A stretch of DNA of 25,183 nucleotides, from IMG/VR virus record IMGVR_UViG_3300046009_002774, positions 1 to 25,183 of that record; one strand, given 5' to 3'. The notes beneath the pieces were generated by a model. It ran no database searches. It worked only from the letters and a program-made list of their open reading frames with translations, and was not told the origin of the DNA. A program made the translations under genes and the position numbers. This DNA is from a virus. Numbering within the stretch: the stretch's first letter is position 1; each line of letters opens with the position of its first letter. Shown piece by piece: positions 695 to 24,014 of the stretch.

Positions 695-1615
695 TTACAG
701 ATTGCCTAATCGTATTAATGTAGCAGATAAATTAATCTCTGCATCACATATTAGCGCATGATCGACTAGACCTTGTTTAATAATAAGAATTGCTTTGCGT
801 TGTTTATCTTCATCGCCAAATACACTAATATTATCGTATAACCATCTATAAATCTCTTCCATTTCTTCCGGACGTGCTTGAGAGCATAATAATTTACGGG
901 CAGTATCAATTTTACCTGCTTTAAATAAGTCAACCATTTCAAGTTTGTAGTCAGGAAGTCCTGCATCACCAGTAGCCGACGTTTTAAGTACACCAGATAT
1001 GCTATTCATTTGAATAGTGTTAATACATTTTCTTAAATCTGGATAAGTTGCTTTAACATAAGTATCAAGTGTATCTAACTCAAATTCAATGTTTTCTTCC
1101 ATTAAAATTGTAGCAACTCGTGCAGTAAATTCTACACTATCAACTTTTTCAATATGGAATCCTTGACATCTCGAATGAATAGCAGGAATAATTTTATTTG
1201 GGTAGTTACATGTTAGTACAAATCTTGATGTATCGGAATATTCTTCCATAATACCACGTAAGCTAGCCTGTGCAGGCGGTGTTAAGAAGTCAGCTTCGTC
1301 AAGTAGCACTACTTTAAACTCACCAAACGGTATCATTTGAATAAAGTTTGTAATTCTATCTCGCATTGCGTCAATGCCGCGTTCACGAGATGCGTTGATT
1401 TCTAAAATATCCAAATCATCTATTTCTAATTCATTAAATAATATTTTTGCAAGTGTTGTTTTGCCCACACCTGCGCCGCCACTAAACAATAAATGCGGAA
1501 TACTTTTTTGTTCAATCCAACTCTGTATCTGTTGTTGTTGTCTGTCGTCTTTGAATACATATCCGTCAAGAGTTGCAGGACGGTAAGATTCTACCCATAA
1601 TGATTTTGTTGCCAT
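695..1615 (-). CDS. 44: Clamp-loader small subunit (T4 gp44-like AAA+ ATPase)
   Basis: A 306-aa AAA+ ATPase of the clamp-loader family; T4 gp44 is 319 aa. In T4 the gp44/gp62 complex uses ATP to load the gp45 sliding clamp on primer-template junctions. Visible motifs: N-terminal WVESYRP (7-13), Walker A GGAGVGKT (46-53), Walker B VVLLDEAD (102-109), sensor 1 TCN (135-137) and the SRC arginine-finger motif (148-150), which is the hallmark of clamp-loader small subunits. The last ~140 residues would form the helical collar. It has its own consensus sigma70 promoter (1646-1674), which suits early expression. The start is the ATG before ATKSLWVE, consistent with the family's usual N-terminus. A gp62 homologue is not in this window. 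The stop lies 31 bases upstream of the -10 box of the next operon. Confidence 0.95.
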   Translation of the reverse strand: MATKSLWVESYRPATLDGYVFKDDRQQQQIQSWIEQKSIPHLLFSGGAGVGKTTLAKILFNELEIDDLDILEINASRERGIDAMRDRITNFIQMIPFGEFKVVLLDEADFLTPPAQASLRGIMEEYSDTSRFVLTCNYPNKIIPAIHSRCQGFHIEKVDSVEFTARVATILMEENIEFELDTLDTYVKATYPDLRKCINTIQMNSISGVLKTSATGDAGLPDYKLEMVDLFKAGKIDTARKLLCSQARPEEMEEIYRWLYDNISVFGDEDKQRKAILIIKQGLVDHALICDAEINLSATLIRLGNL

Positions 1616-1645: not shown

Positions 1646-1674
1646 ATTATAGCGTAAAAGACGCAGTATGTCAA
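1646..1674 (-). promoter_or_regulatory. Consensus sigma70 promoter for the clamp-loader gene
   Basis: On the minus strand: TTGACA (1669-1674), 17-base spacer, TATAAT (1646-1651). Both hexamers match the consensus perfectly at ideal spacing. The -35 box coincides with the loop, plus one stem base, of the 12-bp inverted repeat at 1658-1686. The leader from the expected start site to the ATG at 1615 is roughly 24 bases. Confidence 0.85.
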
Positions 1675-1686
1675 ATACTGCGTCTT
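1658..1686 (-). terminator. 12-bp perfect hairpin: terminator of the co-chaperonin unit and/or operator
   Basis: AAGACGCAGTAT (1658-1669) and its exact complement (1675-1686) flank a 5-base loop. The hairpin lies just after the co-chaperonin stop (1693-1695). On the minus strand a short run of four T's follows the stem, which fits a modest intrinsic terminator for the leftward late unit. The repeat also brackets the -35 box of the clamp-loader promoter, so it could instead, or also, be a binding site for a dimeric regulator. The sequence alone does not decide between the two. Confidence 0.7.
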
Positions 1687-1692
1687 CACAGG

Positions 1693-2076
1693 TTAGTACA
1701 TTGGCTGACTAAAGTCAAACTCTTGTACAGTTGATGCGTTTGATGCGCCTAGGTTGACGTCTGTGGGTAAATGATCTGAAACTGCAATAATTGCTTTAGT
1801 TTCAACTCGTCTAACAGTAACAATGCTACCGTCAGTGTCTTCAACTTCGACACCACGTGTCCATCGACCATGTTCTATTAAAATCCAATCACCGACGTTA
1901 ACGTCAGATTGATCTGGACCAACTTTAAATACTTTGCCCCAACGAGGTTTAATACCTTCAGTTTTACCGTTGTCACTGCTAACAATAATCCCGCCTGCAG
2001 AAAATTGTTCTGCAAAGTTCATATCTGTAATTAACACATTATCATGAATAGTATCTAGGTGTCCTGTTACAATCAT
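1693..2076 (-). CDS. GroES/gp31-like co-chaperonin
   Basis: A 127-aa protein of the Cpn10 fold. The opening 'HDNVLITDM' and GGIIVSSDNGKTEG (about 28-41) match the first strand and the mobile-loop/roof region of GroES, followed by RWGKVFKVGPD and NVGDWILIEHGRW, the typical 'G.V..vGpg....vGD.Vl' pattern of the family. T4 gp31 (111 aa) replaces GroES on host GroEL to fold the major capsid protein. A similar role here is inferred from family and context. The C-terminal ~25 residues (from about PTDVNLG) go beyond a standard GroES and may be disordered. Its start overlaps the stop of the 114-aa gene (ATGA), indicating translational coupling. It is the last gene of the leftward unit before the hairpin at 1658-1686. 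Confidence 0.85.
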   Translation of the reverse strand: MIVTGHLDTIHDNVLITDMNFAEQFSAGGIIVSSDNGKTEGIKPRWGKVFKVGPDQSDVNVGDWILIEHGRWTRGVEVEDTDGSIVTVRRVETKAIIAVSDHLPTDVNLGASNASTVQEFDFSQPMY

Positions 2077-2439: not shown

Positions 2440-2949
2440 TTATCTTAAAAACTCTCGCCAATCTAAATTATATTTAATACTATCTATTTTGTGAACATTT
2501 AACAAATATAACACGAAACTAGAAACACTAGATCCTCTTCCTACGCCCCAAATAATATTTTCTTGTAAACAGGTATCTACAAAAAATTTAAGCCATTGCA
2601 GTAATCGAATCATGTTTCTTTTTTTAAATTCTGCTAGCTCATCTAAAACTCGTGTTTGTTCAGTACTAGATGTACATTTTGATATACAATACTCTTGTAC
2701 ATCAAATGAATAATATTCAATTGGCATAAACCAGCAGTCTTGTGATTTGCTATCAAACTCGTCAATCGATAAGTCGTATGTTGATGAATCAAATGTAGCA
2801 AAGGTCATCTCTGCTATTTTAGAAAGTTGTGAAAATTCGTAAGTGTTTTCAACTACAATATTTGATAATGATGTTTGATGTCCTGAATACAAGACATCAA
2901 ACACATCAGATTCGTTAAAAATTGGGTTTGCAAATTTATCTAATTTCAT
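2440..2949 (-). CDS. Truncated DNA polymerase III alpha (DnaE)-like palm fragment
   Basis: A 169-aa protein. Its C-terminal third (about 110-169) follows the bacterial replicative polymerase DnaE just before its active site: a helix RLLQWLKFFVDTCLQENIIW, then GVGRGSSVSSFVLYLLNV (like GPGRGSAAGSLVAYLLGI in DnaE), then KIDSIKYNLDWREFL (like DPLKYdLlFERFL). In full-length DnaE the catalytic aspartates follow shortly after FERFLNP; this protein stops at FLR, so it lacks them, as well as the thumb, fingers and PHP domain. The N-terminal 100 residues are not recognised. The next gene downstream is unrelated, so this is not a broken gene with its remainder nearby. The ribosome binding site is weak. 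A non-catalytic nucleotide- or DNA-binding role is the simplest reading, but nothing proves one. Confidence 0.7.
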   Translation of the reverse strand: MKLDKFANPIFNESDVFDVLYSGHQTSLSNIVVENTYEFSQLSKIAEMTFATFDSSTYDLSIDEFDSKSQDCWFMPIEYYSFDVQEYCISKCTSSTEQTRVLDELAEFKKRNMIRLLQWLKFFVDTCLQENIIWGVGRGSSVSSFVLYLLNVHKIDSIKYNLDWREFLR

Positions 2950-6465: not shown

Positions 6466-7923
6466 ATGACACATATATTTAATATTCAAAACGATACCGT
6501 TCTTATTGATAAGTTAGCTGTTTCAGAAATCAATAGTAATGTTAGTATTAATGGTAACACAATAACACACGGTTCAGTTAACATTTACGGTGATTTGCAA
6601 TCTCGTAACATTACTGCAAATACATTACGAGTTAAAGAGTTAATATCAGAGACTACTGATTTTGGTAATTGGTATGCAAAAACGTTTAGTGAGCTAAACG
6701 GCAAAGGTATTACATGGACATGTGAAGAAGGTGCAACCCAGTTAATTTATCGAACAGGCAATCGCATATGGACTTCTAGTAACATTGATATATCAGTTGA
6801 GTCATCATACTTAATTGACAATACTGCAGTGCTAAGTTTAACTTCGTTAGGTCCAACTGTTACAAAGAGTAATCTTAGACAAGTAGGTGCATTAACTGCA
6901 CTTTCTGTAATAGGGTCAGCTGCTATTGGCGGATTTGCATATTTTGATGAAAATACAAATCGGTTAGGGTTAGGTACAACTGATCCATCAGCATCAATTA
7001 GCATAATTGATAATAATGTTGAGATTTCAATAGGTAGTCCAGCAAATAATATTGCATCAATTGGAACTAACTCAAATCATGACTTTTCTATTATAACCGA
7101 TAATATTGATCGAATTTTAATTAAACACTCAGGCGATGTTGAAATTGGTAATCAGTTTAATAAATCAGCTGTATTAAGAGTGTTTGGTTCATTACATGCA
7201 GATTCGGTTGTTTCTGATATTCGTGTTGAAAGAACATCGTCGTTAATGTTTAACGAGACAACTACAGAAGGCATATACAATAAAGGGTTACAATGGAATA
7301 ACGTCAATAATACGTCATCGCATCTATTATTAAAATCTGATCCATGTAGATTGTGGTCAAGCGAATCGATTGATGTGTCTGCAGATAAATCATATTTTAT
7401 TAATGGTATAGAAGTTATTTCGGAAACTAAGTTAGGTGATTCCGTCGTAACTTCTAAATTAGAATCTGTTGGAAACTTAAAAGAGTTAACAGTTGCCGGT
7501 GATACAACACTATCTGGAAATGTAACTGTTGGTAAGTTATTGATTGATTCCATTGAGACATCAAAATTAGTAGCGGTTACTGCTGTATCAATGAGTGTAG
7601 ATGATAATGCTGTACTATATGCTTCTAATTCTGAGATAGTAATTGGATCTTTACAAAATACCCGTCGTCCGGTAAAAGTATTTGGGCCAGTATCTATTGG
7701 GATCAATAATCCTGATCCGTCTGTTAGTTTTTCAGTCAGCGGAGCTGTTAGTTTTAACAATAAGAAATTTATAGTAGGTGACGGAGTACCGGCAGCTGGA
7801 GAATACACCACAGGGGATATTATATGGAGTAAAAATCCAATAAATGATGGGTATGTAGGATGGGTATGTATTCGTAGTGGCACCCCAGGTGAATGGAAAC
7901 CGTTTGGTGCTTTAGGAGTGTAA
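6466..7923 (+). CDS. Tail-fibre protein with internal duplication
   Basis: A 485-aa beta-rich structural protein. The first ~60 residues read as short repeats (VSINGNTITHGSVNIYGDLQ), typical of triple-stranded fibre shafts. A segment of about 72 residues occurs twice (79-150 and 273-345): GKGITWTCEEGATQLIYR...RIWTSSNIDISVESSYLID matches NKGLQWNNVNNTSSHLLLK...RLWSSESIDVSADKSYFIN. The motif LGLGTTDPSASISI (167-180) recurs as SIGINNPDPSVSFSVSG (410-426), the 'GIGT..P...L.V' form seen in many fibres and surface proteins. The C-terminus (TGDIIWSKNPINDGYVGWVCIRSGTPGEWKPFG) is a common ending of phage tail-fibre proteins and probably forms a trimeric tip. No S74 chaperone domain is present. A late promoter lies directly upstream. 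The stop overlaps the start of the next gene (TAATG). Confidence 0.8.
   Translation: MTHIFNIQNDTVLIDKLAVSEINSNVSINGNTITHGSVNIYGDLQSRNITANTLRVKELISETTDFGNWYAKTFSELNGKGITWTCEEGATQLIYRTGNRIWTSSNIDISVESSYLIDNTAVLSLTSLGPTVTKSNLRQVGALTALSVIGSAAIGGFAYFDENTNRLGLGTTDPSASISIIDNNVEISIGSPANNIASIGTNSNHDFSIITDNIDRILIKHSGDVEIGNQFNKSAVLRVFGSLHADSVVSDIRVERTSSLMFNETTTEGIYNKGLQWNNVNNTSSHLLLKSDPCRLWSSESIDVSADKSYFINGIEVISETKLGDSVVTSKLESVGNLKELTVAGDTTLSGNVTVGKLLIDSIETSKLVAVTAVSMSVDDNAVLYASNSEIVIGSLQNTRRPVKVFGPVSIGINNPDPSVSFSVSGAVSFNNKKFIVGDGVPAAGEYTTGDIIWSKNPINDGYVGWVCIRSGTPGEWKPFGALGV
6700..7500 (+). repeat. Two-copy internal duplication in the 485-aa fibre gene
   Basis: Copies at about 6700-6915 and 7282-7500 encode about 72 residues each. 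Shared positions include 'GK/NKG(I/L).W', 'R(I/L)W(T/S)S..ID(I/V)S...SY.I', 'LG..V..S.L..VG.L..L(S/T)V.G'. The copies are clear at protein level but diverged in DNA, so the duplication is old. Confidence 0.7.
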
Positions 7924-8321
7924 TGACAAATGACAATAATAGACAAGGAACAATAGATGAGCACACCGTTGAATTGGAAATAATTTATCGTCAACGAAGA
8001 ATGTGGCTGTATGCTAGTTCAATAGTAGTAGTAGCAGTATGTTGCATAATTGCTAGCTGGTTTTATCTGTCTAGTCTTAATAACAATTTAATTTGGTGGG
8101 GTATTATTTCGGTTAGCTTAATAGTTAGTATAAATTGGTGGTATTGGACGGTTAGTACAATAGGTAAGTTAGTTAGAGCAATACATAATGAATATCAGAT
8201 ATTAAATGACATTTCAACAGATCTTGAACATGTAAAGATTATTGTAAATTGTAAAGCAACTAATACTGATATTTGCAATGAATGTCCAGCAGTAGATAGT
8301 TGTACTGAAATGAAGAAGTAG
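7923..8321 (+). CDS. Two-helix membrane protein with a four-cysteine tail
   Basis: A 132-aa protein. Hydrophobic segments at about 29-50 (LYASSIVVVAVCCIIASWFYLS) and 56-78 (rich in Trp, Ile, Val) are preceded by a basic RQRR and followed by a helix-forming cytosolic tail. The tail ends with Cys at 110, 118, 121 and 127 (CKATNTDICNECPAVDSC), a spacing that could bind a metal. I chose the ATG at 7923, not one 30 bases upstream, because it overlaps the fibre stop as TAATG and has AGGAG at 7914-7918. It is co-transcribed with the fibre gene from the late promoter. I do not recognise the family. Late expression and topology would allow a holin-like or lysis-related role, but the long soluble tail is unusual for one. 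Confidence 0.7.
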   Translation: MTNDNNRQGTIDEHTVELEIIYRQRRMWLYASSIVVVAVCCIIASWFYLSSLNNNLIWWGIISVSLIVSINWWYWTVSTIGKLVRAIHNEYQILNDISTDLEHVKIIVNCKATNTDICNECPAVDSCTEMKK

Positions 8322-8322
8322 G

Positions 8323-8351
8323 TTGACTTCTTGAAGCAATGATTATATAAT
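8323..8351 (+). promoter_or_regulatory. Sigma70-type promoter for queD
   Basis: TTGACT (8323-8328), 17-base spacer, TATAAT (8346-8351): eleven of twelve consensus positions at ideal spacing. It starts two bases after the stop of the upstream late gene, so queD is uncoupled from the structural unit and should be expressed early. Confidence 0.85.
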
Positions 8352-8378: not shown

Positions 8379-8912
8379 ATGAAATGGGAAATAGATAAAG
8401 AGTTTCATTTTGAAATGGGACACAGAGTATGGGCACAAAAATTAAATCATGTTGAGTTAAGTATTTCAACTGACTGTGCCTGCAAGCATTTACACGGACA
8501 CAGCTATTCAATTAAAGTATTTTTAGGTTCTGATACGTTAGATCATTCAGAAATGGTTACAGACTTTAAGAATTTAAACTTTATGAAACAATTTGTAGAT
8601 GATGTGCTAGATCATAAGTTTATGATTGATATCAATGATCCAAACTTTAAGTTAATTACAGGTAACGAATGGAGCAAAGCCAAACACCCATTTGCAAACT
8701 TTACTAACTTAGGAAGTTACAACTGGGTTGGATTAACTGAAGGTGAACAATTACATTATAACAGTTTTGTACTAGTAGATTTTGTACCAACTAGTGAAAA
8801 CATTTGTAAGTATTTGTTTGAATATGCTCAATCACGTATAGGTGATGTAGCAAAGGTTACTGCAGTTGAGCTGTGGGAAACTCGCAAAAGCCATTGTAGA
8901 TATACAGGATAA
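8379..8912 (+). CDS. queD: 6-carboxy-tetrahydropterin synthase QueD
   Basis: A 177-aa member of the QueD/6-pyruvoyl-tetrahydropterin synthase fold. It should convert dihydroneopterin triphosphate to 6-carboxy-tetrahydropterin, the second step towards preQ0. Key residues are in place: zinc ligands His15 (GHR), His39 and His41 (HLHGHSY), catalytic Cys35 four residues before the HGH, EMVTDFKNL (58-66), the DH of LDHKFMID (Asp78-His79), PTSEN (137-141) and the C-terminal VELWET Glu167. E. coli QueD is about 120 residues; the extra length is mostly an insert at about 85-130 (WSKAKHPFANFTNLGSYNW and so on). In phages this pathway supplies 7-deazaguanine bases, either for DNA modification that resists restriction or for tRNA queuosine. 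The other genes (folE, queE, queC, a DNA transglycosylase) are not in this window. It has its own sigma70 promoter and ends at a strong terminator. Confidence 0.93.
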   Translation: MKWEIDKEFHFEMGHRVWAQKLNHVELSISTDCACKHLHGHSYSIKVFLGSDTLDHSEMVTDFKNLNFMKQFVDDVLDHKFMIDINDPNFKLITGNEWSKAKHPFANFTNLGSYNWVGLTEGEQLHYNSFVLVDFVPTSENICKYLFEYAQSRIGDVAKVTAVELWETRKSHCRYTG

Positions 8913-8913
8913 G

Positions 8914-8941
8914 AAAAAAGGCAGCGTAAGCTGCCTTTTTT
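8914..8941 (+). terminator. Bidirectional intrinsic terminator between queD and uvsE
   Basis: AAAAAAGGCAGC (8914-8925), loop GTAA, and the exact complement (8930-8941): a GC-rich six-base stem core flanked by six A's on one side and six T's on the other. It therefore works as an intrinsic terminator on both strands, for rightward queD (stop at 8912) and leftward uvsE (stop at 8947). The loop GUAA is a GNRA-type tetraloop on the rightward RNA. Confidence 0.92.
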
Positions 8942-8946
8942 ATTGA

Positions 8947-10733: not shown

Positions 10734-13700
10734 ATGCAAGAACAAATTCAAATCGGTGTACAAGGCAACGACGGCACTGGTGATAGTATAAGAGACGCAT
10801 TTCGTAAAGTTAATGCAAACTTTACTGAAATATATGCAATTTTTAACCAAGGCGGCCGTATTACCTTTTCTGATTTAGCAGATGGTTGCGATTATTCAAC
10901 AGTAGATGATGTATTAGTTGGAAATCAAATTATTATGGGTAATGCAACTGGTACCAGTTTAACTGCTAGAAAATTAGTTAAAGGTAATAAGTTTATTGAC
11001 ATTAATATCACTGACACGTCGATCGTTATATCATCAAAAGCATCTCAACTTTCAGAAGATGAAACTCCTGAAATTAAATATCCGTTTAATGCAAATGGGT
11101 TTCCTATCGGAAGAGTTCCGGATCCAAGCGATGCATTAGTTCAATCATTTAACACCTTATGGGCTCCTCTTAATGTTACAACTACACTTGACGAGTTAGT
11201 AGTTAACGTTGGTTATGCAAATAAAAATTATGTAAGATTAACAGAAGACGGTACTATAGGTATAGTAGATTCAAACGGTTCAATTGTACCAGGTCCAGTA
11301 AGTGCGCGTAATGAACCGATTGCACCTGATACATCTGCAGGAAGCACATACGATTCAACATTAACTAGTAATTATTTGCCATCCGAAGTACTACCTCGTA
11401 AGAATACAATATACCGCGGTGGTGATACTATGACAGGGCCGCTGTATTTACATGATCATCCAAAAGAATTAGCAGGTATAGTTGGTATTGATAATAAAGA
11501 TGATTTACAAGCCGCAACTGCGTTTTATGTTGATAAAAAAACATTTTCAAGTAATGTTAATCTATACATAGCAACTAGCGGCGATGATTTACAATCACAA
11601 ACTCCTGCAGGTAAAGAAGGTAGATTTTGGAATTACGCTTTTAGGTCGGTCGGTGCTGCAATGTTACATGCAGAGTCATTAATTAATGTAGCAAGTCAAG
11701 AACCAGGCCCATACAAACAACGTATTTCCTATACGATAAGTGCTGATCAGTATTTTTCAAAAATTCAAAAAGTGTCGTTAACTGGTGGAAATTCTAGCGA
11801 TTCTGGGTATGTTGCTGCATTTAATTTATTACAAGCAAACAAAGGTTTTATTCAAGCAGAAGCAATTGCGTATATTAATAAAAAATACGTTAATCCGTTT
11901 GCCTATGACACTAATACACTTAAAGATAAGATTAATGTTTTATTAACAAATATCGGAACCGATTTAGTGCTAGGCGCATCTAATCCAGATTCTGCTACGT
12001 CGGGTACTAATTACAATTCATACTGGGAAGGTGTAAGTTATGTTCACGATAATCCAACTAGTGATGGTTTAATTCAGTGGGTCGAAACTGTTAACTTTAT
12101 AAGAGATCAAATTATCGATTTCTCATATAACACAGTTGCATTACAAGCATATACTTTACAATTAATTAATGCAATTAAGTACGATGCATTGTTTAAATCA
12201 AATTATCAAAGTGTTCAAACAGCAATTGCATTTAAAAATGCTGGTACTAATATAAGTGCTGAACAATTAGCATCTATGTTAATTATTAATCCAATATCTA
12301 TTAAATCAGCAGAGTGTGACGGATCTCAAATAACATTATTCTTTAACACACAAACATCAATTTTGTATCCAGTAGCAAGTGAGATTCTTATTAATGCATC
12401 TCTAATTGGTATAGATATTGCGTCTGATGCGGTTACAATTTCTTCATTTAATAACAGTGCAGTTGTTTCGTTTGTAGTTACTAGATCAACCCTTACTTCA
12501 GTTTCGTTCTCAAATACTACATTACAATTAAATGCTGGAAGATTTAGTGCAACTGGTACCATAGATCGTAAAAATTTAATCAACTTGTTAATGTTAACAC
12601 CGGCAATTCGTAATCTACCAGCGGCATCAAAAACAAGTTTAATTATTTCAAATATTAACGTTATTCGTAACTACGTACTGTACGGAACATTGCCTGCAGT
12701 AAAGTATCCATTACCTGCAAATCCAGCAGTAGGGTATGATCTAGTTGGGCATGCATCAGCTAAACAGTTATTGTTAGAAAATATTGCATTTATTCAAGCT
12801 GAAACATTGTCGTTTTTAAGTTCAAAATATCCAAATGTAATTTATGATAGAGCGTTAAGCAATCGTGATATAAAATATATTATTTGGAGTTTAGTATACG
12901 ATTTAACATACGGCGGTAATAGTCAAAGTGTGTATGCTGGAAAACAATTTTGGGCTAACGCATCATCTAATTTTATTAAAGATTCAGAATCAGAAGCATG
13001 TATTGCAGCAATTAGACATGTCAACGTATTAGCACAATCAATTATTAAAAACGGTACATTAAACGTATCATATCAGCAATCTGTAAGACAATATAGAAAT
13101 GATACACTATCTAATGGTATAGTTGCGTCGTTGTCAGTTTCGTCAAACATTACGTTAATTGCAGATATTTTAACTGATATTGCAAATGTGCCAGTGTCTA
13201 CTACATACCCAGATATTACAACCGGCAATAGTGATTTGCAAACAGTCTATACCGGTATTGGCAATACAACTGCTGTGTATACAACCGGACCTACTACATC
13301 TACATCTTGGTTTATGAATAAGTTTTATCCAGTAATTGATACTGAGATTAAACAAACTAAAATTATAAGATTATTCAAAGTTATAACCGATATTATACAA
13401 TCTGGTAAAGTTCCAACAACGTTACCAACGTTTCCTGCATTAAGTTCGAATATAAAAGTTAACACTAATCAAACTATTACTGCAGCAATGATTGATCAAA
13501 CTAGATCAATTTTTACATATAGTATCATTAACAATATTGCTACTAACACCGAATTGTATGTATATGATAATCAAGATATCGGAGAACTGTTTTACGGCGT
13601 TACTTATGATCGAGTAAAGATGGTTCAGGAATTACAAAATATTGTAACTGCGTTGTTATATGATATAACGTTTGGTGGAGATTCGGCATTATATCGAGCA

Positions 13701-16700
13701 AGTCAACAATATACAAAAGTTGGCGATGCACCAGGTAACACCAACGGTACAACAAACATTTTTAATCGTGTAAAAACTTTTGCTACTGCACAAATTACTG
13801 CTAATTATTCCGGCACTGCGCCTCAACTATCTGCAATAACTGCGTTAATTAACGATAAAGTTGACAAAGTTGTTAACTTTTTAACTGTTGCCAGCCCTAC
13901 AATAACGCTAGTTAACGAAGATACATTTACTAATAATGATACAAATGATATGTATAGAAATGCAATATCATTAAGAAATCTTATTATAAACAATTCAACG
14001 TCAATTGTTAACAGCACTGTTGTGTATGTTAATACTACATTTGCAGGCGGGTTTGTATACGATGAATCGTTGTGTTATAGAGATTTAGGATTTATCATTG
14101 ATTCAATGTGTATTGATTTAATAACAGGCGGAACATGGCAAGCTATTAATTCAGGAAAAAGTTTTTATAAAAATGCTAGTGCAAGAACTATTGCAGTTGG
14201 CGGCACACATTATAAACAATCGCTTGACGGATTACAATTTGCTAAAACAGTTGCATTGCAGGTCTTAAATAAAGAAACTGCAGTTAGATATCAATCGTTG
14301 CCTCAGCTTGTTTCATTCTCAAATGCAAGCGAGTTACCGTCAACTTCTATATTTGTACAAGGTAATATAGCAGCAAATGTTGCATCATTAAGATCAGTAT
14401 CGTTTGTTGATATTGGCGATTTAGTTGTTTTAACTAGCCATGGTCTAACTAACGGTACATCAGTATCATTCTCATCTATCACAACAACTACTGGTATTGT
14501 TACCAATACAATTTATTATGTAGCAAATGCAACTACTCATAATTTTAAATTAACTACATTAACTGGTAATTCTGTTACATTGACATTAAATGGAACAGGT
14601 ATATTAAATTCAAATGATTCAATAACAAAATTTACTAATAGTTTTGATACAGTTCTTAATATTCTTCAATACGGTGTCGGCGTAGCACCAGTTGCATCAT
14701 ACGGCACTGGAATATGGCATGTTTGTGTTAACAATGGTGGTAGAGGATTTGTTGATCAAGGGTCACCGTCAAACAACGATATTTTTCCTGCTAAAGTAGT
14801 ACTTGGTGTCGGTTCATCAACAGTTGATGCATCGGACGCATATGGCACAATTGTAAAATATGTGCCGGCACAAGATACATCGTTAACTATTATCTCAATT
14901 GACAGTCTTACACAATTTACACTATCGGTTAATCATAAAACTGCAGGCAGTATTACAATCACTGTTGGAACAGTTACTGGATTATCTGCTACGTTGTCAA
15001 CTGGCACTGCAGTAGTTACGTTAACATCTGGAAATACAGCTGAATTAAGTATTGGTCAAACCCCAACTGCGATAACAGGACCTGGTGAGTTTGGTGTAGG
15101 TACACTAGGAAATGTTGATACTGTACAAGTTCGGTTATCTAAACCTGGATTCTTTACATCATCTTATATTTTATCTAATGTTACCTGGGCATATTCAAAT
15201 GCTAATATTATAGTTACTAGTAACAATCACACAGTTACTGCAGGAACAAATATTATTGTAAATTCTGCTAATTTTTCTGGTAGTAACACTAATGCACCAA
15301 CAGGTTCATGGGTTGTATCATCTGTAACGACTAATACATTCTCATTTACTGCAGATGCAATACCAACTGGTACTAGCACAACATTAACTGTTGTAATTCA
15401 AGTTGGTGAGGAATTAGAATTTGGTGAAACTGTTCGTGATTTACAAATTACAGTATTTGTAGAAAGTGGTATTTACTACGAAGATTATCCAATTAGATTA
15501 CCCGCTAACGTTTCTATTAAAGGTGACGAATTCCGTAGAACAATTATTCGACCAATTGACAGAATTAGTCAAAGTGCATGGGTTAACATGTTCTTTTATC
15601 GTGATTCTATTATTGATGCACTAGAAATTGGTAAAGTTAATTATAACGGAACTGATGATTCACCTGTAGTATCAAGTTTTGTGTCATTTACAGATACCGG
15701 TGATTTAGTTACATTAGCATCGCATGGTCTTATTTTAAATTCAAAAGTAAAATTTGTAACTATTAGTACAACTACCGGGTTAACTACTGATATTGATTAT
15801 TATGCAATACCTGTTTCAGAAAACACATTTAAAGTTAAATTGTCTATTACTGGTAGTGCATCGACGTTAACTAACAACGGTACCGGTATAATGACTCATT
15901 ATACTGATTATTCTCCAGTTGTTTCAACTAACGTGTCTTTTACTGATTCCGGCGACTTAATTACATTAGTAAGTCATGGATTTTTATTAAACAATCGAGT
16001 TACATTTTTATCAGTTAATACAACTACTGGGTTAACATTAAATGTAGGGTATTTTGTAATTCCTGTTTCAATAAACACGTTTAAGGTTGCATCTGTTAAA
16101 GATGGAAGTGCTGTGTCGTTTACTAATAACGGTACCGGTGTAATTTCACACAATATTACTGCATCATTTGACGGTGTATCAAATAAGATCGTTGTTACAT
16201 TAGGTAGTAACTATCAAGCATTATTATCATGGGTTGGTAGAGTAATTGCTGATACATCGACTACTGATAATAAAAAACGAGGAAGAGCAGTTATTGATTC
16301 AGTAAGTGGCAACACTATGAATTGTACTGTAATTTATCCATTTGATCAACCAGGGATATATCCGTATTCTGTTATTGTAGCAGGTGTAACTAAAATAGTT
16401 ACGTGGAAATTGTTTGATACTAACAATTACGGACGTCATTACTTAACTGATCCGTTAGATATCAACAGTACACCTAAAAATAATAAAGAAATTGACGTAT
16501 TTTTATGTAATGAAGGAAACAGGGTTTTAGGTATGACATTCCAAGGTCATGGCGGATTTGCTATGGTACTTGATCCAGAAGGTAACATTAAAACTAAATC
16601 ACCATACATCCAAGAATGTTCTAGTTTCTCGCAAAGTAATAACTATAAAAGATTTGCAGGTGGTCAATTGATTGACGGGTTTGCAGGTAGATTATATGGT

Positions 16701-19700
16701 ACAATTACTAACATTGCAGATCAAGGACTTACTGTAACAGTAATAGGTGAAGACAATAGTGGTTTAGATGTTAGACCGCCACAACCACCTTGCTCTTTCT
16801 ATGTACGTGGTAACCGATATCAGATTGATGATATTGCAAGTTTTGATGCATCAACTAAAACAGTGGTGTTAACGTTAGATAAGTCAACTACGTATATGTA
16901 TGATCCTGTTACCCATGCACTTACTTATGACTTATTAAAAGCACAACGTGACGTTGGGTTTGTTCTTGATGCTGCAATAACTGATGCTATATTAGGAACT
17001 AACTATCGATCAATACATGCAGGTAGATCATTTTTAAGAACGTATTCAAGCTTATTAATTGGTGGTTTGAAAGATTTAACAATTTCAGGTATTGACGAAT
17101 CTGCAAGATTGGCAAATTTATACTTTGCAAATACTAGTTTATTATCAAATAATATTAGAATTATAACTGGTATGATTAGCAACGGGGTTAATGCAACACC
17201 TACTATTACTTGGCCTACTAGTGCAACCAGTGATTTAAATAAAGTTCGTGATATTATTCAAAACAATAAAGAGTTTATTAAAACAGAAATTAGTGCATGG
17301 CTTGCTGCTGGTAGCAGCGGGTATAATATTAGTAAGTTTGCTAATTATAACGTGTTAACTAGCGAAAGAGATACCGGGTACATAATTGATGCTATCACGT
17401 ATGACATTTTCTTTGGTGGAACAAGTCAAACTTATGATAGTGCTATTTCATTTTATTATTATGATACTGCTAATAATATACAAAGTGTTATTCCGGACGA
17501 ACTTGAATTATGTAAACAAGCATACATTCATTTAAAATCTATATTGCAAGATATTATAGCAAATAATGTAATTACTAAATCGTCCGGTAACGGTGTAAGC
17601 CAAATCTTTTATACCACACTACCGACGTCAACTTCTACTTATGTAACTAACGCAGGCAATTTGTGTGATATAATAATTGATTATGTTGTTGATCATGCAT
17701 GGACAGCTATTCCGTCAGTTGCTATACCATGTAAAGTTGTATCTGCAACTATATCAGGAACACAAACTGGCACATATGCAGTTGGTAATTTATTAACAGT
17801 ATCCGGAGTATCTGGAGTAATTGCATATGTTACTGCAGTGTCGTTAACTGGTGCAGTAACTGCAGTTAGTTTTACAAGAACAGGAGCAACTGCTGGCAAC
17901 TTTACATCTACTCCGGCATCATTAACTGCCCTTGCAACTGCAAATAGTAATATATCTACAGGGTACGGTGCAGGTGCATTGTTAACACTTGTTATCGGAC
18001 CGCAGTACTTCCCATCATTACCAACTGGAGATAATACAGATGATTACGGTACAGTGTTAACCGATATATCAACTATTGCATCATCGGTTACTACTTTCTT
18101 AAATAATGGTGCTAATTTACGGATTAATTTAGAAACTGGCGGTAATCGGTCTATGTTAGCAAACGACTTTGCTATGTTTAATGATTTAGCATATGGTATT
18201 CTTGCAACAAATGGTGCGTTTACTGAACAAGTATGTACATTTACGTATTATGCACATACCGGGCTTTGGGCAAACAACGGTAGTAACTTAAGAGGCGTAG
18301 GCTGTTCAAACACCTTTGGTAATTACGGTATGAGGGCGTCGGGGTTTGACGTTACTGAATTACCAGATAGTACTAACCTTGCTAACCACATGATTCAAAC
18401 TGCAATAGTGTATAAACAAGGGTTAACTATTAACGAAATGACTCCTACTGCTACAACTTCTGCGGTATCTGTGTGGATTAGTGGTTATGATTATAAACCA
18501 ACAAATGGTTCTACATTAGAAATTGATCATACAGTAAATGGCGGTATTATTACTAAGTATTCAATCACATCAGTTGAGTATACTTCAATTTTAATTGGAA
18601 CTAAAACAGTTCTTAAACTGAACTTATCTGCTTCAACAAGTTCAACTAGTGCAGCATCGGCTGGGTTAGCAAAAGAATTGTACCATGGGCAGGTAGTAAC
18701 TATTCGTGTAACAACTAACGTAAAATTTAATAATATTGATAACGTTAAACCGACTAGACCATCAACTGCATTACAATATAATGACAACTTAAATGATGTA
18801 TATCGTATTGTTGCATATAACTTAACAGAATCAACTGGTGATTTATTAGATCCAAACGTTGCAATTTTACAAAGTGATAATGATTTTGCATATTACAGTT
18901 TTATTGTTGACCCTGCTAACATCGTAAATGGTGATCCTTCTTCAAATATAACAGCATCTATCGTATCCGGTAGTGTTTCAAGTACTACAATAACAGTTAA
19001 TAATGTTGTCGGAATAATCGAAGCTGGACAAACTATTGTAGGCATTGGGTTTACAGGACAAATTGTATCAACTGTAACCGGACCAATAAGTAGTGTTTAT
19101 ACTATTACATTAGGGTCGGTAACTACATCAACTGCAAATCCAACAATTACTCCAGCAGGCCCGGTGTCGTTCTCATTTAAAACACAAGGATCTAAAGTTA
19201 GTGATACTAAAATAGCAGTAAGTCGTATTACACAAGATTCAGTTATTGATCAAATCAATAAAGGAACATATATCACTTCATGGAATGGTAGATTACATCG
19301 TGTATTAAAATATGTAGTTCCGACTTTTGCAGCATCTAGATTAGGTGTAGAGTATAACAACACTACTCAGATATTAGAAGTTTCAGGAAATTCGGGAACA
19401 ATTGTTCCTGGAACAATTATTGTCAGTAAAGTGTTAGTTGGCGGAGTATCTACTGTTGAATTTATTGGTACTGTTGTAAGTTCAGAAATTACTGTAGGAA
19501 ATTTAACGCATACTAGTATAACTGTTTTAAATGGTGTAGGTACTGTTACTGCAGGAAGTGAAGTTACATTTGGTGTTAATAACAACGGCTATCTTGAAAT
19601 TTCAGCTAATGCAATTATTAATAATTCTGCAGACGGAACTGGTATTCCTGCAATGGTGTTTGCAAGTAGTACATTACAAGTTGACAGCACAGTTAATAAA

Positions 19701-22700
19701 TTAGTAACATTTAACATTCCGTACAATAAGGATAACTTAATACCAAAAGTTGATAGCTTTATTACAATTAGCGGAAATTCAAATTCTAATTATAATGTTC
19801 CGTTGCAGGTTACTTCAATAAAAGATCAAACTACCTTAACTCTTCCATCGGTTGAAGGGTATGTGCCGGGAATGATCATTACATCTGAATATATTGTAAC
19901 AACTATTGCTAGTGGTACTACATTTACAACAATTGCAGAAACTGGTCTATCTACAGGTGATATAGTTAAGTCAAATACTACAACTAATGGATTAGAAAAA
20001 GGAATTATCTATTATGTAAAATCAACTCCGTCGACATATACATTTACGTTAACTACAGGATCACCAAGTAACGCAGTAAAAACTGATTTTATATCTGGTA
20101 CTAGTTTATTGGTATCAATCAAAACACCAACTACTGCAAATATGAACTCGGAAACAATTGTTCAATCAGTTGATAAAGATACTAACAAAATTGTAGTAAG
20201 TCCGTCATGTTGGGCACCAAACGGGTCTCCAATTAGAGCAATATTAGCAGCTAGTGTAAAAAGAATTTATATATCAGATGGCGGTACTGGATATACTGTA
20301 CCACCACCTATCACTATAGTAGGTGAACCGTACACTCAACAAGCAACTGCATCATGTAATGTAGTTAATGGTGTTATTACACAAATTAATTTAATAAGAC
20401 CAGGGTCGGGTTATATAACTACGCCAACTGTTCAAATTGGTATTGCTCCAAATGCTCCAGCACGGTCATCACAAGACCGTGATGCAGTAATAATAATAGA
20501 GCTAACAACACCTGTTTATAGAACGTCTATTGCATCTACCGGTGAAACCGTTACACAATTAACTACGTTGTTTTCTGGAGATCCTGGTGTTTTTGGTGCA
20601 GATACTGCTGCTACAATTGTTAATGCCAACACAGGTCTTCCAACATTAACTACTTATAATGGTGTTGAAGGGTATTCGGTAGCATATAATTATTCAACAT
20701 TAGGATCAGCTCTTACTGCAGGAACTTGGTACCAAATTGCAGGAAATAGCAGTTTACTTTATAACGGATTTGTACAAGTAATTTCAAGTGCTGATGCTAC
20801 CCATGCTGTTATATTTTATCCGTATAATCCCGGATTATATGGAACTGGTACTACTACAATTGTTAGAACTAGTACATCTGGATTAGGTGATAGTTTAGGT
20901 ATTAGTAAACCGTTTAGTAAAACATCATCTTATACTTTAAAACTTGGGTATGCAGTTGATGTAGGCGGCCAAGTAACGACACGTATTAGTACCTGTCGTG
21001 CAACAGGACACGATTTCTGTGATATAGGTACCGGCGGATATAGTACTACAAATATTCCATATTCAATCTACGGTGATCCTGCATTAGCAAGAAACCCTGC
21101 ACACGAAACATTAGACGAAGGTGTAGGACGTTGTTTTTACGTTTCAACTAATCAAGATGGTATATTTAGAGTAGGACGTTTCTTCTCAGTAGACCAAGGT
21201 ACTGGTACTGTAACGTTTAGTGCTAAGATTTCGTTATCAAACATCGAAGGGTTTGGTTTTAGTAGAGGGGTTGTTGTTAACGAGTTTTCATCTGATTCAT
21301 CATTAACTAACAATGCATCTGAAATTGTTCCTGTTCAAAGTGCAGTACGTGGGTATATTGATAAACGATTAGGATTAGATCACGGTGGTTCATTGATGCC
21401 GTTTACGTCAATTATTGGACCTGGATTCTTACCATTAAATGGTATTACTGCTATGAACGGCCCTATTAACATGAATGGCGAGCATCGAATTACTGGCTTA
21501 AATGGACCTGCAGTAGATTCAGATGCTGCAACTAAAGGTTATGTAGATACTCAAATATCGTCAAAAGATGCAGTTTCAAAGTTAGGTGATGTTAAAGTAA
21601 CAAGTACTCCACAATCTGCACAAGTGTTATCATATGTAATTGGACCAACTGACAGTGGATTGTCAACAGAGTATAAATGGCGTAATAAAACGATTATCGG
21701 AGATATAACGTTATCGGTTGTTTCTGAAACAATTTCCGGAATAACATATTACAATTTAACTTCTATAATCGGTGCTGGTAAGATTGTTAACAGTATGGTT
21801 AGTTCAACTGCTGCAGTTGATCAAAGTAAACTCGCACTAACTGCTGCACCTACAGCGTCTACTGTACCAAGTAGTTTTGTTCAGGCTAATTTAGGTGTTG
21901 CTAGCTTTAATAGTAATCAATTTAACGCAACATACGGTTGGATCGATCTTAAAAATAACGGTGTTGCGTTAGGTAAACTAGCTGCAATAAGTACAGGGAA
22001 TGTATTAGGAAATAATAGTGGATCATCGGTAGCACCTACTGAAATATCATTTGGTACAGTTGTTACAGGCGGTGACGGTATTACGAATGCGGTATTTGGT
22101 AGTGGTACTACTGCGTTAACTAATTATGTTATGTTAGCGTCTTACAACGGAACAACCACTTCTCAAAATACCTATAGTTTAATAGCTACAACTACTACTA
22201 ATGATCTAAGAAATAGAATAGTAAAAACTGGTGATGTTGGTGATATTAATGCCGAACAATATAAAATTGACGGTTCTAAAATTATTGATACTATAGGAGC
22301 AGGTGCGGCAGAAACAATAAAGGTAGTATTTACAACTCCTGGTTCTTCTGACTTTTTAACTGCAGTAGGTAATGGTACTAATTTAGCACCAGTTGTAGTT
22401 AAAGTTTTAGGAACATTAGATGTTTCAGGTAATACAATAAACGCATCTACACTTAATTACAGTGGTACTAACCTTACTGGTACAATTTCCGGATCATGGA
22501 CTTTACCGACAGGAAGTACATTTGATGCAAGACAGGGTACATTTAGATCGTCCGGTGCAGGATTAGAAGCAAGTGATACAAGACCAAAAGTAAAACCAAC
22601 CGTAATGTTTGATTTTGCTAATAGTAGAACATTAGATCCAAGGATTACATTTACGCGTGAGTCAATTGGTACATATTATGATATGTCAGGAGTAATGAAA

Positions 22701-24014
22701 GTTGCAATTGCTAATCAACCAAGGTTTACATATAATACAGTAACTAGAATGTCATCAGGGTTATTAATCGAAGAAAGTCGAACTAATTATATAAGATATT
22801 CTGCGTTATTCACGTTAGGAGTAATAACAGATGCTACAACATGGTATGATACACGTATTTCAAGAGATCCATTATCTGGTGTAGTTGCTCCGGATGGAAC
22901 TACTGCAATTAAATTTACAGCTGATAGCGGTACAACTGCACTTGCTCCTGCAAAAATTATGTTCCAATCTGCTCCTGCAGGCGGTCCTATTCCTAGAACA
23001 TTCTCAATATGGATTAAGAGAGTTTCAGGAACAGGAAGTATACAATACACAATGGATCCAAATACCCCAGTAATTGAGTCTTCAGAGCCATCTTGGTATA
23101 CAATTCCAGTAACTACAACACTAACAAGATATGATTTTACTGACAATACATCAGATCATGGTGTAGGTATTAAGTTAGAAACAGCAGGTGATTCGATTGT
23201 AATGTGGGGTGCGCAATTAGAAGATGGAGGAATGGTTACAAGTTATATACCAACTGTTACAACTATTGTAACACGAGAAGCAGATACGGTTTATGTTGGC
23301 GGTACTAATTTCTCAAGATGGTATAATCAAAATGAAGGTACTATATTAATTTCTCAAGCTGCAACTGCAATTGATAAGTCAATTACAGTTAAAGATTATG
23401 GTGGTGTGTTTATTGAAAACGTTAATCAATCTACAACTATCGCAGTAGGTGGGTTAACTACTGGCACGTCGTCAATGATTTATAAAGCAGTTGGTAAAAC
23501 TAATACATCGACAACACAGTTTAATCTTTCTAGTATAACTACTGCAGTTTTAAATAATGAAGTTACTCATGCAGTAGCGTACAGATCAACGTTATTACCA
23601 GTAGTAATTACTGCATCGGCATCAACTACAACAACTACTACATTTACATCAATTGCAGTAATTAATGGAATATTTCCAGGTGCAACTATTGCAGTAACAA
23701 CCGGAGTAGGTTCATATCCTGCAGGAACTTATGTTGTTTCGGTATTAGGAAACACCTTAGTAACTTCACAAGCACCATCAACTACTTTATCGGCAAGTGT
23801 AGTTATCACTGTTACAAATGCTATAGTGTCTTATATTTCAAATGGTGATAATGCAACATTAGTAACTGATAGTGCTTCAGATATAGTCGATTCTGTAAAT
23901 CCTATGCAACGGTTAAATATAGGTAACGAAACAGGTGCTCAAACAATTTCTAAAATTGCATATTATCCAGTAAGATTAAATGATGCAGAAATAACGGCAA
24001 TTACAACCCAATAA
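10734..24014 (+). CDS. Giant mosaic tail-fibre protein (4,426 aa)
   Basis: One uninterrupted frame of 13.3 kb. Domain order by residue: N-terminal attachment motif GNDGTGDSIRDAFRKVNANF (11-30); GGDTMTGPLYL (about 228-238) with AATAFYVDKK; six helical repeats of the form 'FI..E...yi...Y....RD.gyi.dai.yDi..GG.sqs..ag..fy' (about 365, 680, 943, 1107, 2065 and 2177); three beta repeats 'F...GDLV.L.SHGL....V.F..I.TTTGL' (1221-1290, 1648-1719, 1732-1804); a pectate-lyase-like beta-helix opening VESGIYYEDYPIRLPANVSI (about 1576); GRHYLTDP..DINSTPKNNKEIDVFLC and QGHGGFAMVLDPEG (about 1900-1970); GNRSMLANDFAMFNDLAYG (about 2470); RISTCRATGHDFCDIGTGGY and GIFRVGRFFSVDQGTGTVTF (about 3417-3526); a second GPINMNG...AATKGYVD module (about 3576); and a C-terminal lectin-like domain from MFDFANSRTLDPRITFTR (about 3955) to IAYYPVRLNDAEI. 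All are modules of aquatic T4-like fibres, so a host-adhesion role is likely. A late promoter and AAGGAG precede it. Confidence 0.9.
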   Translation: MQEQIQIGVQGNDGTGDSIRDAFRKVNANFTEIYAIFNQGGRITFSDLADGCDYSTVDDVLVGNQIIMGNATGTSLTARKLVKGNKFIDINITDTSIVISSKASQLSEDETPEIKYPFNANGFPIGRVPDPSDALVQSFNTLWAPLNVTTTLDELVVNVGYANKNYVRLTEDGTIGIVDSNGSIVPGPVSARNEPIAPDTSAGSTYDSTLTSNYLPSEVLPRKNTIYRGGDTMTGPLYLHDHPKELAGIVGIDNKDDLQAATAFYVDKKTFSSNVNLYIATSGDDLQSQTPAGKEGRFWNYAFRSVGAAMLHAESLINVASQEPGPYKQRISYTISADQYFSKIQKVSLTGGNSSDSGYVAAFNLLQANKGFIQAEAIAYINKKYVNPFAYDTNTLKDKINVLLTNIGTDLVLGASNPDSATSGTNYNSYWEGVSYVHDNPTSDGLIQWVETVNFIRDQIIDFSYNTVALQAYTLQLINAIKYDALFKSNYQSVQTAIAFKNAGTNISAEQLASMLIINPISIKSAECDGSQITLFFNTQTSILYPVASEILINASLIGIDIASDAVTISSFNNSAVVSFVVTRSTLTSVSFSNTTLQLNAGRFSATGTIDRKNLINLLMLTPAIRNLPAASKTSLIISNINVIRNYVLYGTLPAVKYPLPANPAVGYDLVGHASAKQLLLENIAFIQAETLSFLSSKYPNVIYDRALSNRDIKYIIWSLVYDLTYGGNSQSVYAGKQFWANASSNFIKDSESEACIAAIRHVNVLAQSIIKNGTLNVSYQQSVRQYRNDTLSNGIVASLSVSSNITLIADILTDIANVPVSTTYPDITTGNSDLQTVYTGIGNTTAVYTTGPTTSTSWFMNKFYPVIDTEIKQTKIIRLFKVITDIIQSGKVPTTLPTFPALSSNIKVNTNQTITAAMIDQTRSIFTYSIINNIATNTELYVYDNQDIGELFYGVTYDRVKMVQELQNIVTALLYDITFGGDSALYRASQQYTKVGDAPGNTNGTTNIFNRVKTFATAQITANYSGTAPQLSAITALINDKVDKVVNFLTVASPTITLVNEDTFTNNDTNDMYRNAISLRNLIINNSTSIVNSTVVYVNTTFAGGFVYDESLCYRDLGFIIDSMCIDLITGGTWQAINSGKSFYKNASARTIAVGGTHYKQSLDGLQFAKTVALQVLNKETAVRYQSLPQLVSFSNASELPSTSIFVQGNIAANVASLRSVSFVDIGDLVVLTSHGLTNGTSVSFSSITTTTGIVTNTIYYVANATTHNFKLTTLTGNSVTLTLNGTGILNSNDSITKFTNSFDTVLNILQYGVGVAPVASYGTGIWHVCVNNGGRGFVDQGSPSNNDIFPAKVVLGVGSSTVDASDAYGTIVKYVPAQDTSLTIISIDSLTQFTLSVNHKTAGSITITVGTVTGLSATLSTGTAVVTLTSGNTAELSIGQTPTAITGPGEFGVGTLGNVDTVQVRLSKPGFFTSSYILSNVTWAYSNANIIVTSNNHTVTAGTNIIVNSANFSGSNTNAPTGSWVVSSVTTNTFSFTADAIPTGTSTTLTVVIQVGEELEFGETVRDLQITVFVESGIYYEDYPIRLPANVSIKGDEFRRTIIRPIDRISQSAWVNMFFYRDSIIDALEIGKVNYNGTDDSPVVSSFVSFTDTGDLVTLASHGLILNSKVKFVTISTTTGLTTDIDYYAIPVSENTFKVKLSITGSASTLTNNGTGIMTHYTDYSPVVSTNVSFTDSGDLITLVSHGFLLNNRVTFLSVNTTTGLTLNVGYFVIPVSINTFKVASVKDGSAVSFTNNGTGVISHNITASFDGVSNKIVVTLGSNYQALLSWVGRVIADTSTTDNKKRGRAVIDSVSGNTMNCTVIYPFDQPGIYPYSVIVAGVTKIVTWKLFDTNNYGRHYLTDPLDINSTPKNNKEIDVFLCNEGNRVLGMTFQGHGGFAMVLDPEGNIKTKSPYIQECSSFSQSNNYKRFAGGQLIDGFAGRLYGTITNIADQGLTVTVIGEDNSGLDVRPPQPPCSFYVRGNRYQIDDIASFDASTKTVVLTLDKSTTYMYDPVTHALTYDLLKAQRDVGFVLDAAITDAILGTNYRSIHAGRSFLRTYSSLLIGGLKDLTISGIDESARLANLYFANTSLLSNNIRIITGMISNGVNATPTITWPTSATSDLNKVRDIIQNNKEFIKTEISAWLAAGSSGYNISKFANYNVLTSERDTGYIIDAITYDIFFGGTSQTYDSAISFYYYDTANNIQSVIPDELELCKQAYIHLKSILQDIIANNVITKSSGNGVSQIFYTTLPTSTSTYVTNAGNLCDIIIDYVVDHAWTAIPSVAIPCKVVSATISGTQTGTYAVGNLLTVSGVSGVIAYVTAVSLTGAVTAVSFTRTGATAGNFTSTPASLTALATANSNISTGYGAGALLTLVIGPQYFPSLPTGDNTDDYGTVLTDISTIASSVTTFLNNGANLRINLETGGNRSMLANDFAMFNDLAYGILATNGAFTEQVCTFTYYAHTGLWANNGSNLRGVGCSNTFGNYGMRASGFDVTELPDSTNLANHMIQTAIVYKQGLTINEMTPTATTSAVSVWISGYDYKPTNGSTLEIDHTVNGGIITKYSITSVEYTSILIGTKTVLKLNLSASTSSTSAASAGLAKELYHGQVVTIRVTTNVKFNNIDNVKPTRPSTALQYNDNLNDVYRIVAYNLTESTGDLLDPNVAILQSDNDFAYYSFIVDPANIVNGDPSSNITASIVSGSVSSTTITVNNVVGIIEAGQTIVGIGFTGQIVSTVTGPISSVYTITLGSVTTSTANPTITPAGPVSFSFKTQGSKVSDTKIAVSRITQDSVIDQINKGTYITSWNGRLHRVLKYVVPTFAASRLGVEYNNTTQILEVSGNSGTIVPGTIIVSKVLVGGVSTVEFIGTVVSSEITVGNLTHTSITVLNGVGTVTAGSEVTFGVNNNGYLEISANAIINNSADGTGIPAMVFASSTLQVDSTVNKLVTFNIPYNKDNLIPKVDSFITISGNSNSNYNVPLQVTSIKDQTTLTLPSVEGYVPGMIITSEYIVTTIASGTTFTTIAETGLSTGDIVKSNTTTNGLEKGIIYYVKSTPSTYTFTLTTGSPSNAVKTDFISGTSLLVSIKTPTTANMNSETIVQSVDKDTNKIVVSPSCWAPNGSPIRAILAASVKRIYISDGGTGYTVPPPITIVGEPYTQQATASCNVVNGVITQINLIRPGSGYITTPTVQIGIAPNAPARSSQDRDAVIIIELTTPVYRTSIASTGETVTQLTTLFSGDPGVFGADTAATIVNANTGLPTLTTYNGVEGYSVAYNYSTLGSALTAGTWYQIAGNSSLLYNGFVQVISSADATHAVIFYPYNPGLYGTGTTTIVRTSTSGLGDSLGISKPFSKTSSYTLKLGYAVDVGGQVTTRISTCRATGHDFCDIGTGGYSTTNIPYSIYGDPALARNPAHETLDEGVGRCFYVSTNQDGIFRVGRFFSVDQGTGTVTFSAKISLSNIEGFGFSRGVVVNEFSSDSSLTNNASEIVPVQSAVRGYIDKRLGLDHGGSLMPFTSIIGPGFLPLNGITAMNGPINMNGEHRITGLNGPAVDSDAATKGYVDTQISSKDAVSKLGDVKVTSTPQSAQVLSYVIGPTDSGLSTEYKWRNKTIIGDITLSVVSETISGITYYNLTSIIGAGKIVNSMVSSTAAVDQSKLALTAAPTASTVPSSFVQANLGVASFNSNQFNATYGWIDLKNNGVALGKLAAISTGNVLGNNSGSSVAPTEISFGTVVTGGDGITNAVFGSGTTALTNYVMLASYNGTTTSQNTYSLIATTTTNDLRNRIVKTGDVGDINAEQYKIDGSKIIDTIGAGAAETIKVVFTTPGSSDFLTAVGNGTNLAPVVVKVLGTLDVSGNTINASTLNYSGTNLTGTISGSWTLPTGSTFDARQGTFRSSGAGLEASDTRPKVKPTVMFDFANSRTLDPRITFTRESIGTYYDMSGVMKVAIANQPRFTYNTVTRMSSGLLIEESRTNYIRYSALFTLGVITDATTWYDTRISRDPLSGVVAPDGTTAIKFTADSGTTALAPAKIMFQSAPAGGPIPRTFSIWIKRVSGTGSIQYTMDPNTPVIESSEPSWYTIPVTTTLTRYDFTDNTSDHGVGIKLETAGDSIVMWGAQLEDGGMVTSYIPTVTTIVTREADTVYVGGTNFSRWYNQNEGTILISQAATAIDKSITVKDYGGVFIENVNQSTTIAVGGLTTGTSSMIYKAVGKTNTSTTQFNLSSITTAVLNNEVTHAVAYRSTLLPVVITASASTTTTTTFTSIAVINGIFPGATIAVTTGVGSYPAGTYVVSVLGNTLVTSQAPSTTLSASVVITVTNAIVSYISNGDNATLVTDSASDIVDSVNPMQRLNIGNETGAQTISKIAYYPVRLNDAEITAITTQ
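11826..17466 (+). repeat. Six diverged copies of a ~50-70-aa helical fibre repeat
   Basis: Copies begin at about 11826, 12771, 13560, 14052, 16926 and 17262. The best conserved core is a helix with RD(I/L/T/V)(K/G)(Y/F)(I/V)I, then YD(L/I)(T/F)(Y/F)GG(N/D/T)SQ(S/T), then A(G/I)..F(W/Y). For example LSNRDIKYIIWSLVYDLTYG (copy 2), LCYRDLGFIIDSMCIDLITG (copy 4) and LTSERDTGYIIDAITYDIFF (copy 6). Copy 1 is the most diverged. Several are preceded by a helix 'N..FI..E...(F/Y/W)L'. The repeats are recognisable only at protein level. Confidence 0.65.
14394..16145 (+). repeat. Three ~70-aa beta repeats (SHGL/TTTGL type) in the giant fibre
   Basis: Copies at 14394-14603, 15675-15890 and 15927-16145. 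Each reads 'SF.D.GDLV.L.SHGL....V.F..I.TTTGL......YV......F K......G.....NGTGI'. Copies 2 and 3 are adjacent, separated by 12 codons, and still similar in DNA around the GATTTAGTTACATTA/GACTTAATTACATTA core, so they are a more recent tandem duplication; copy 1 is about 1.1 kb upstream, separated by the beta-helix opening. Confidence 0.75.

Follow-up and report, generated by a model that had tools for sequence, protein, structure and literature searches.

A putative terminator-promoter with its -35 box in a hairpin loop, conserved behind the groES-like gene of uncultured jumbo phages

The stretch of DNA analysed here, hereafter the window, is a viral record of 25,183 bases. Two genes on its minus strand frame the locus of interest: a GroES/Cpn10-like co-chaperonin gene at 1693..2076 (PF00166, E 3.9e-6; phrog_3188/931), whose stop codon precedes the element described below, and downstream of it a gene for a gp44-like AAA+ clamp loader at 695..1615 (phrog_168, E 1.9e-78; PF00004 with Gp44_lid), whose ATG is at 1615. 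These profile matches bear out the neighbours named in the initial annotation, which had placed a hairpin behind the co-chaperonin stop and a promoter before the clamp-loader gene. Elsewhere in the window, a 169-aa ORF at 2440-2949 (-) has its only match (PF07733; phrog_11127) in part of the NTPase domain of DNA polymerase III alpha and is perhaps a polymerase fragment or a split gene, and a single ORF of 4,426 codons occupies 10734-24014 (+), with no Pfam match.

Read on the minus strand from 1686 to 1646, the element is AAGACGCAGTAT-TTGAC-ATACTGCGTCTTTTACGCTATAAT. Its arms at 1675..1686 (-; AAGACGCAGTAT, the 5' arm of the hairpin in groES-sense RNA) and 1658..1669 (-; ATACTGCGTCTT, the 3' arm) make up an inverted repeat of 12 bp in which every base pairs (100% complementarity), and are separated by 5 nt. 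Those five bases, TTGAC at 1670..1674 (-), are the hairpin loop and also the first five bases of a -35 hexamer, TTGACA at 1669..1674 (-); the last base of the hexamer is the first base of the 3' arm, the remainder of which lies in the promoter spacer. A short U-tract, UUUU at 1656..1659 (-), two bases of which are paired at the base of the stem, is followed by ACGC and would make a weak terminator tail. The -10 hexamer TATAAT stands at 1646..1651 (-), 17 nt from the -35 box. The sequence itself, a promoter scan, a pattern search of the whole record and a repeat finder were all concordant, and the initial description of a TTGACA-17-TATAAT promoter overlapping a perfect 12-bp repeat, with the -35 box made up of the loop and one stem base, stands on all four.

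RNA of the groES sense folds at -18.9 kcal/mol over the element compared with -7.5 in shuffles (z -4.65), and by chance the 25,183 bases would be expected to contain about 0.03 hairpins with a perfect 12-bp stem and a loop of 3-8. TTGACA-17-TATAAT, a 12/12 match to sigma70, occurs only once in the whole record. With about 0.03 such hairpins expected in the window, and about 1.0 perfect promoter in a whole shuffled genome of 372 kb, the likelihood that both fell in this register by chance is negligible.

The features expected of a sigma70 promoter are all found here, namely TTGACA, a spacer within 16-18 nt, TATAAT and a downstream gene on the same strand. The clamp-loader gene would be driven by this predicted promoter (1646-1674), and transcription would be expected to start near 1639. 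In a relative of 372 kb (IMGVR_UViG_3300042367_000228), 29 perfect (12/12) sites were found against about 1.0 in dinucleotide shuffles, so this phage group evidently uses host-type promoters widely; 27 of the 29 are on one strand, and 22 of those 27 lie outside ORFs of at least 100 aa. Most of these perfect promoters have no overlapping hairpin. At 336624-365918 (+) this relative also has a run of sites in which the -35 box is the variant TTTACA and GCTATAATATGT recurs as the -10 region; they differ from the TTGACA sites of the opposite strand and possibly represent a second promoter class.

Relatives were gathered by scanning viral contigs with the clamp loader and the GroES-like protein as queries, and later with a GroES alignment, giving 81 groES-homologous loci (the window plus 80 on contigs). 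The same layout was present 3' of the groES stop in 67 of the 81, represented by 41 distinct sequences. In these 67 loci the -35 box begins 14-30 bases past the groES stop and the spacer is exactly 17 nt in every case; for one version of the element, all 63 copies were directly behind the groES gene. The gene that follows is far less constant, being the clamp loader in 19 of 44 cases and another gene in 25, and these downstream genes include various small genes. At the element the groES unit has a border that stays in place, and the neighbour downstream of it can change. Blind inspection of 48 distinct regions revealed three lineages (L114, L115 and L123) with a strong hairpin at the site that no canonical promoter spans; their loops are TTTAATAC, ATCT and TGCAT, respectively, none of them TTGAC. 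That hairpins without the promoter have other loops indicates that it is the promoter that fixes the loop, and the RNA end that maintains the stem. In L124, TTGACA falls in a larger loop of 18 nt, as judged by eye from the sequence, and in three further regions of the 48 (L126, L129 and L130) no element was found.

Taken together, these observations make it probable that the element is a compact bifunctional terminator-promoter. Transcripts through the groES-like gene would fold the stem-loop just past the stop codon, and at the U-rich run that follows the stem in the genus-wide consensus the polymerase would tend to terminate, or the 3' end would be stabilised. As duplex, the same DNA would act as a strong host-type sigma70 promoter, with TTGAC of the loop serving in the -35 box, a 17-nt spacer made up of the 3' arm and U-run, and TATAAT following; from it a fresh transcript of the downstream gene, the clamp loader in the window, would be started. 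Both promoter firing and termination at the hairpin are predictions from sequence.

How strongly the hairpin would terminate appears to differ between copies. The T content just past the stem is 3.2 of 5, compared with 1.4 of 5 at the corresponding spacer positions in a set of 36 perfect promoters that have no such hairpin (p 4e-8). In a d'Aubenton-Carafa-type score the relatives range from -41 to +42, and among the 41 distinct elements 15 have a terminator score above 0, several of them at 27-42, near the score of a strong terminator elsewhere in the window (8911-8944); the remaining 26 fall below 0. Textbook U-tails are found on deep branches (eight T in L088; seven in L010 and L044). The window copy scores -5.7, its hairpin of -18.9 kcal/mol being followed by four U, compared with the G+C-rich hairpin and some 7-8 U of a classical intrinsic terminator. 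Tail and stem compete for the 17-nt spacer, and the subclade of the window has longer stems and shorter tails. Termination at the window copy is probably only partial given its four U, and the element as a whole is probably a terminator of varying strength; low-scoring copies may be weak terminators or only protectors of the RNA 3' end. The hairpin at 8911-8944 is itself strong and has a U-run on either strand (scores of about +39 and +34), a predicted bidirectional terminator between convergent genes for a PTPS-like protein and a UvdE-like UV endonuclease.

Protection or processing could also be the main role of the hairpin beside the promoter, the stem-loop shielding the groES message from 3' exonucleases or being cut by RNase III while most polymerases read through. 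The subclade of the window, with its long stems (13-14 pairs), poor U-tracts and scores of -5 to -41, would fit such a role, but the strong U enrichment behind the stem over the whole set and the classical terminators with 7-8 U on the deep branches L010, L044 and L088 speak against it, and as a general account it is unlikely.

A variant of the terminator-promoter reading is termination-coupled reinitiation, in which the polymerase releasing the groES message would be recaptured with sigma70 on the overlapping promoter and start the next gene. Purified E. coli polymerase stays on DNA after intrinsic termination and reinitiates at nearby promoters (PMC6978380). In the literature searched, no natural element built for such coupling was found, and we regard this variant as rather doubtful; if true, the fused layout would hand the polymerase from one unit to the next. 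The proposal that early and late units meet at the element is not supported: T4-type late boxes (TATAAATA) numbered 3 against 6.5 expected. None was present near the groES gene. A T4-type late promoter feeding the groES unit was rejected, the box being no commoner than chance, and the designation of groES as a late gene is unsupported.

How the element is maintained was examined by covariation. Over the 13 stem pairs of 16 sequences the covariation was 0.629, compared with 0.261 in shuffled alignments and at most 0.174 in slid registers, and 11 of the 13 pairs had changes on both sides. With 35 sequences, including many found later, 73 double-change cells were counted against 20.5 in shuffles. 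Relatedness among the sequences inflates counts of this kind, and the changes were therefore also mapped onto a GroES protein tree; on about 37 occasions along its branches both partners of a pair changed with pairing retained, compared with 0-1.7 in slid registers. The same tree places 163 changes in the 24 arm columns, one in the five loop columns (TTGAC) and eight in the six -10 columns. Mean arm identity is 52-60%, falling to 15-23% in pairwise comparisons, and the promoter boxes are 99% identical. The change counts indicate that what is kept in the duplex signal is its sequence, and in the stem its pairing alone; selection thus acts on both the stem pairing and the promoter boxes. Mismatches in the inner stem (eight G-U against four A-C) do not by their counts alone separate selection on the sense RNA from selection on the DNA.

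These data also bear on the second of the two models initially offered, an operator symmetrical about the -35 box, to which a dimeric repressor or activator would bind and shut the promoter off. The dyad symmetry over the -35 box is indeed perfect, but a binding site would keep its letters, and here the arms are almost wholly different between relatives while the boxes are constant, the changes arriving as compensating pairs; a symmetric half-site conserved among close relatives, as a dimer operator would have, was absent. With arms varying freely while pairing is kept, the operator is disfavoured and now seems very improbable; rescuing it by a regulator that co-evolved lineage by lineage is possible, but would take many coordinated changes. 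Conservation of both arms in close relatives, suggested at the outset as a check, is found for their pairing and is not found for their sequence. The terminator-promoter, the other model, agrees with the free but complementary arms, the fixed loop and -10 box, the U-rich tail and the three hairpin-only lineages. A DNA cruciform, extruded so that supercoiling exposes or hides the -35 box, is scarcely credible: the perfect 12-bp arms and short loop would suit it, compensatory changes would preserve it too and the G-U and A-C counts are not decisive, but the one-sided U enrichment, the fixed placement directly behind the groES stop and the hairpin-only lineages without a -35 loop all point to the groES transcript instead. 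Short AT-rich arms seldom extrude as cruciforms in vivo.

Comparable composites are known from T4-like phages, the promoter-terminator motifs termed PeSLs (promoter-early stem-loops), whose primary papers are cited in PMC4503421. Like a PeSL, the element fuses a strong sigma70-type promoter to a stem-loop between co-directional genes, with a neighbouring gene that varies. PeSLs are characterised by an effective terminator stem-loop, by dispersed copies that serve as recombination sites, and by shuffling of adjacent genes. The strong sigma70-like promoter is present in the window (12/12 match, spacer 17), and the adjacent gene changes among relatives (19 clamp loaders and 25 others). Dispersed copies were not found: each genome examined, the 372-kb relative among them, has a single strong -35-in-loop site, tied to the groES 3' end, and the carrier is not a T4-like (Straboviridae-related) phage: the best isolate match is PA5oct (Arenbergviridae), with 55.8% for the clamp loader, and all isolate matches are below 60%. 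The lack of dispersed copies and of a T4-like carrier sets the element apart from PeSL members. Arbiol 2010 and Comeau 2014 are reportedly the primary PeSL papers, and PeSLs are said to have been described in RB49. When 99.9 kb of RB49 were surveyed, 15 of 41 strong promoters had a strong hairpin nearby or overlapping. The hairpins lay upstream of the -35 box (6), around the -10 box (6) or in the spacer (2), in contrast to the window, where the -35 box is the loop; the one RB49 case with the -35 box in the loop (30176) is inside a coding sequence, whereas the element of the window is behind groES. The best reading of this comparison is that the element would work like a PeSL, differing in register, in its tie to a single locus and in phage lineage.

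Where an ordinary intrinsic terminator precedes a tandem sigma70 promoter, there is likewise a stem-loop, a U-rich tail and then a promoter for the next unit. Terminator and promoter are ordinarily separate, whereas in the window the -35 box, spacer, stem and tail share bases, so that every position of the 3' arm and tail belongs to two codes.

A closely similar arrangement was found in the jumbo phage PA5oct of Pseudomonas at 186478 (AAAAGGGCACTTGACAAGTGCCCTTTTTTTGCCATATAAT), with the -35 box in a hairpin loop, a U-run and TATAAT as in the window. It differs in having a spacer of 18 and in lying about 1.9 kb before the groES-like gene of that phage; the PA5oct groES and clamp-loader genes are 13 bases apart, with no element between them. 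Bacillus phage Troll, which is unrelated and has a Gram-positive host, shows a related but imperfect hairpin-plus-promoter layout after a DNA helicase gene (78037-78070; L242). Two further weak DNA-similarity matches in other isolates were not convincing.

Within the group itself, a genome-wide repeat family was considered and rejected, strong -35-in-loop hairpins being no general promoter feature in the 372-kb relative. In that genome a 12/12 promoter and a long loop-centred stem occur together only at the groES site, and a covariance model finds the element once per relative. Hairpins in other registers do occur. At 146772 (-) in the 372-kb relative and 49423 (-) in another genome (G006), a perfect 8-bp hairpin (ACACCGCC/GGCGGTGT) sits wholly within the promoter spacer, between the -35 and -10 boxes, just downstream of the point where a reading frame of about 370 codons ends, and TTGAC falls in the 5' arm of a hairpin at 261553 in the 372-kb relative and at 83107 in G002. 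At three of these four sites an upstream reading frame ends just before. Fusion of hairpin and promoter is thus recurrent, and it is the -35-in-loop form that is fixed behind groES. The window holds a candidate second composite at 8313-8351 (+), where AAGAAGT-AGGTTG-ACTTCTT overlaps TTGACT-17-TATAAT; it overlaps the stop codon of an ORF at 7893-8321, precedes a 6-pyruvoyl-tetrahydropterin synthase/QueD-like gene (PF01242) and has almost the same sequence in both relatives compared.

The same 30 bases thus carry a fixed duplex signal (the -35 and -10 boxes) and a free-running RNA pairing that are separately selected. The dozens of natural arm variants are a ready series for work on the packing of terminator and promoter, on interference between them and on polymerase handover, and experiments are possible in PA5oct, the nearest isolate, because it has one -35-in-loop site. 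For uncultured jumbo phages, the element offers a practical flag for the borders of transcription units.
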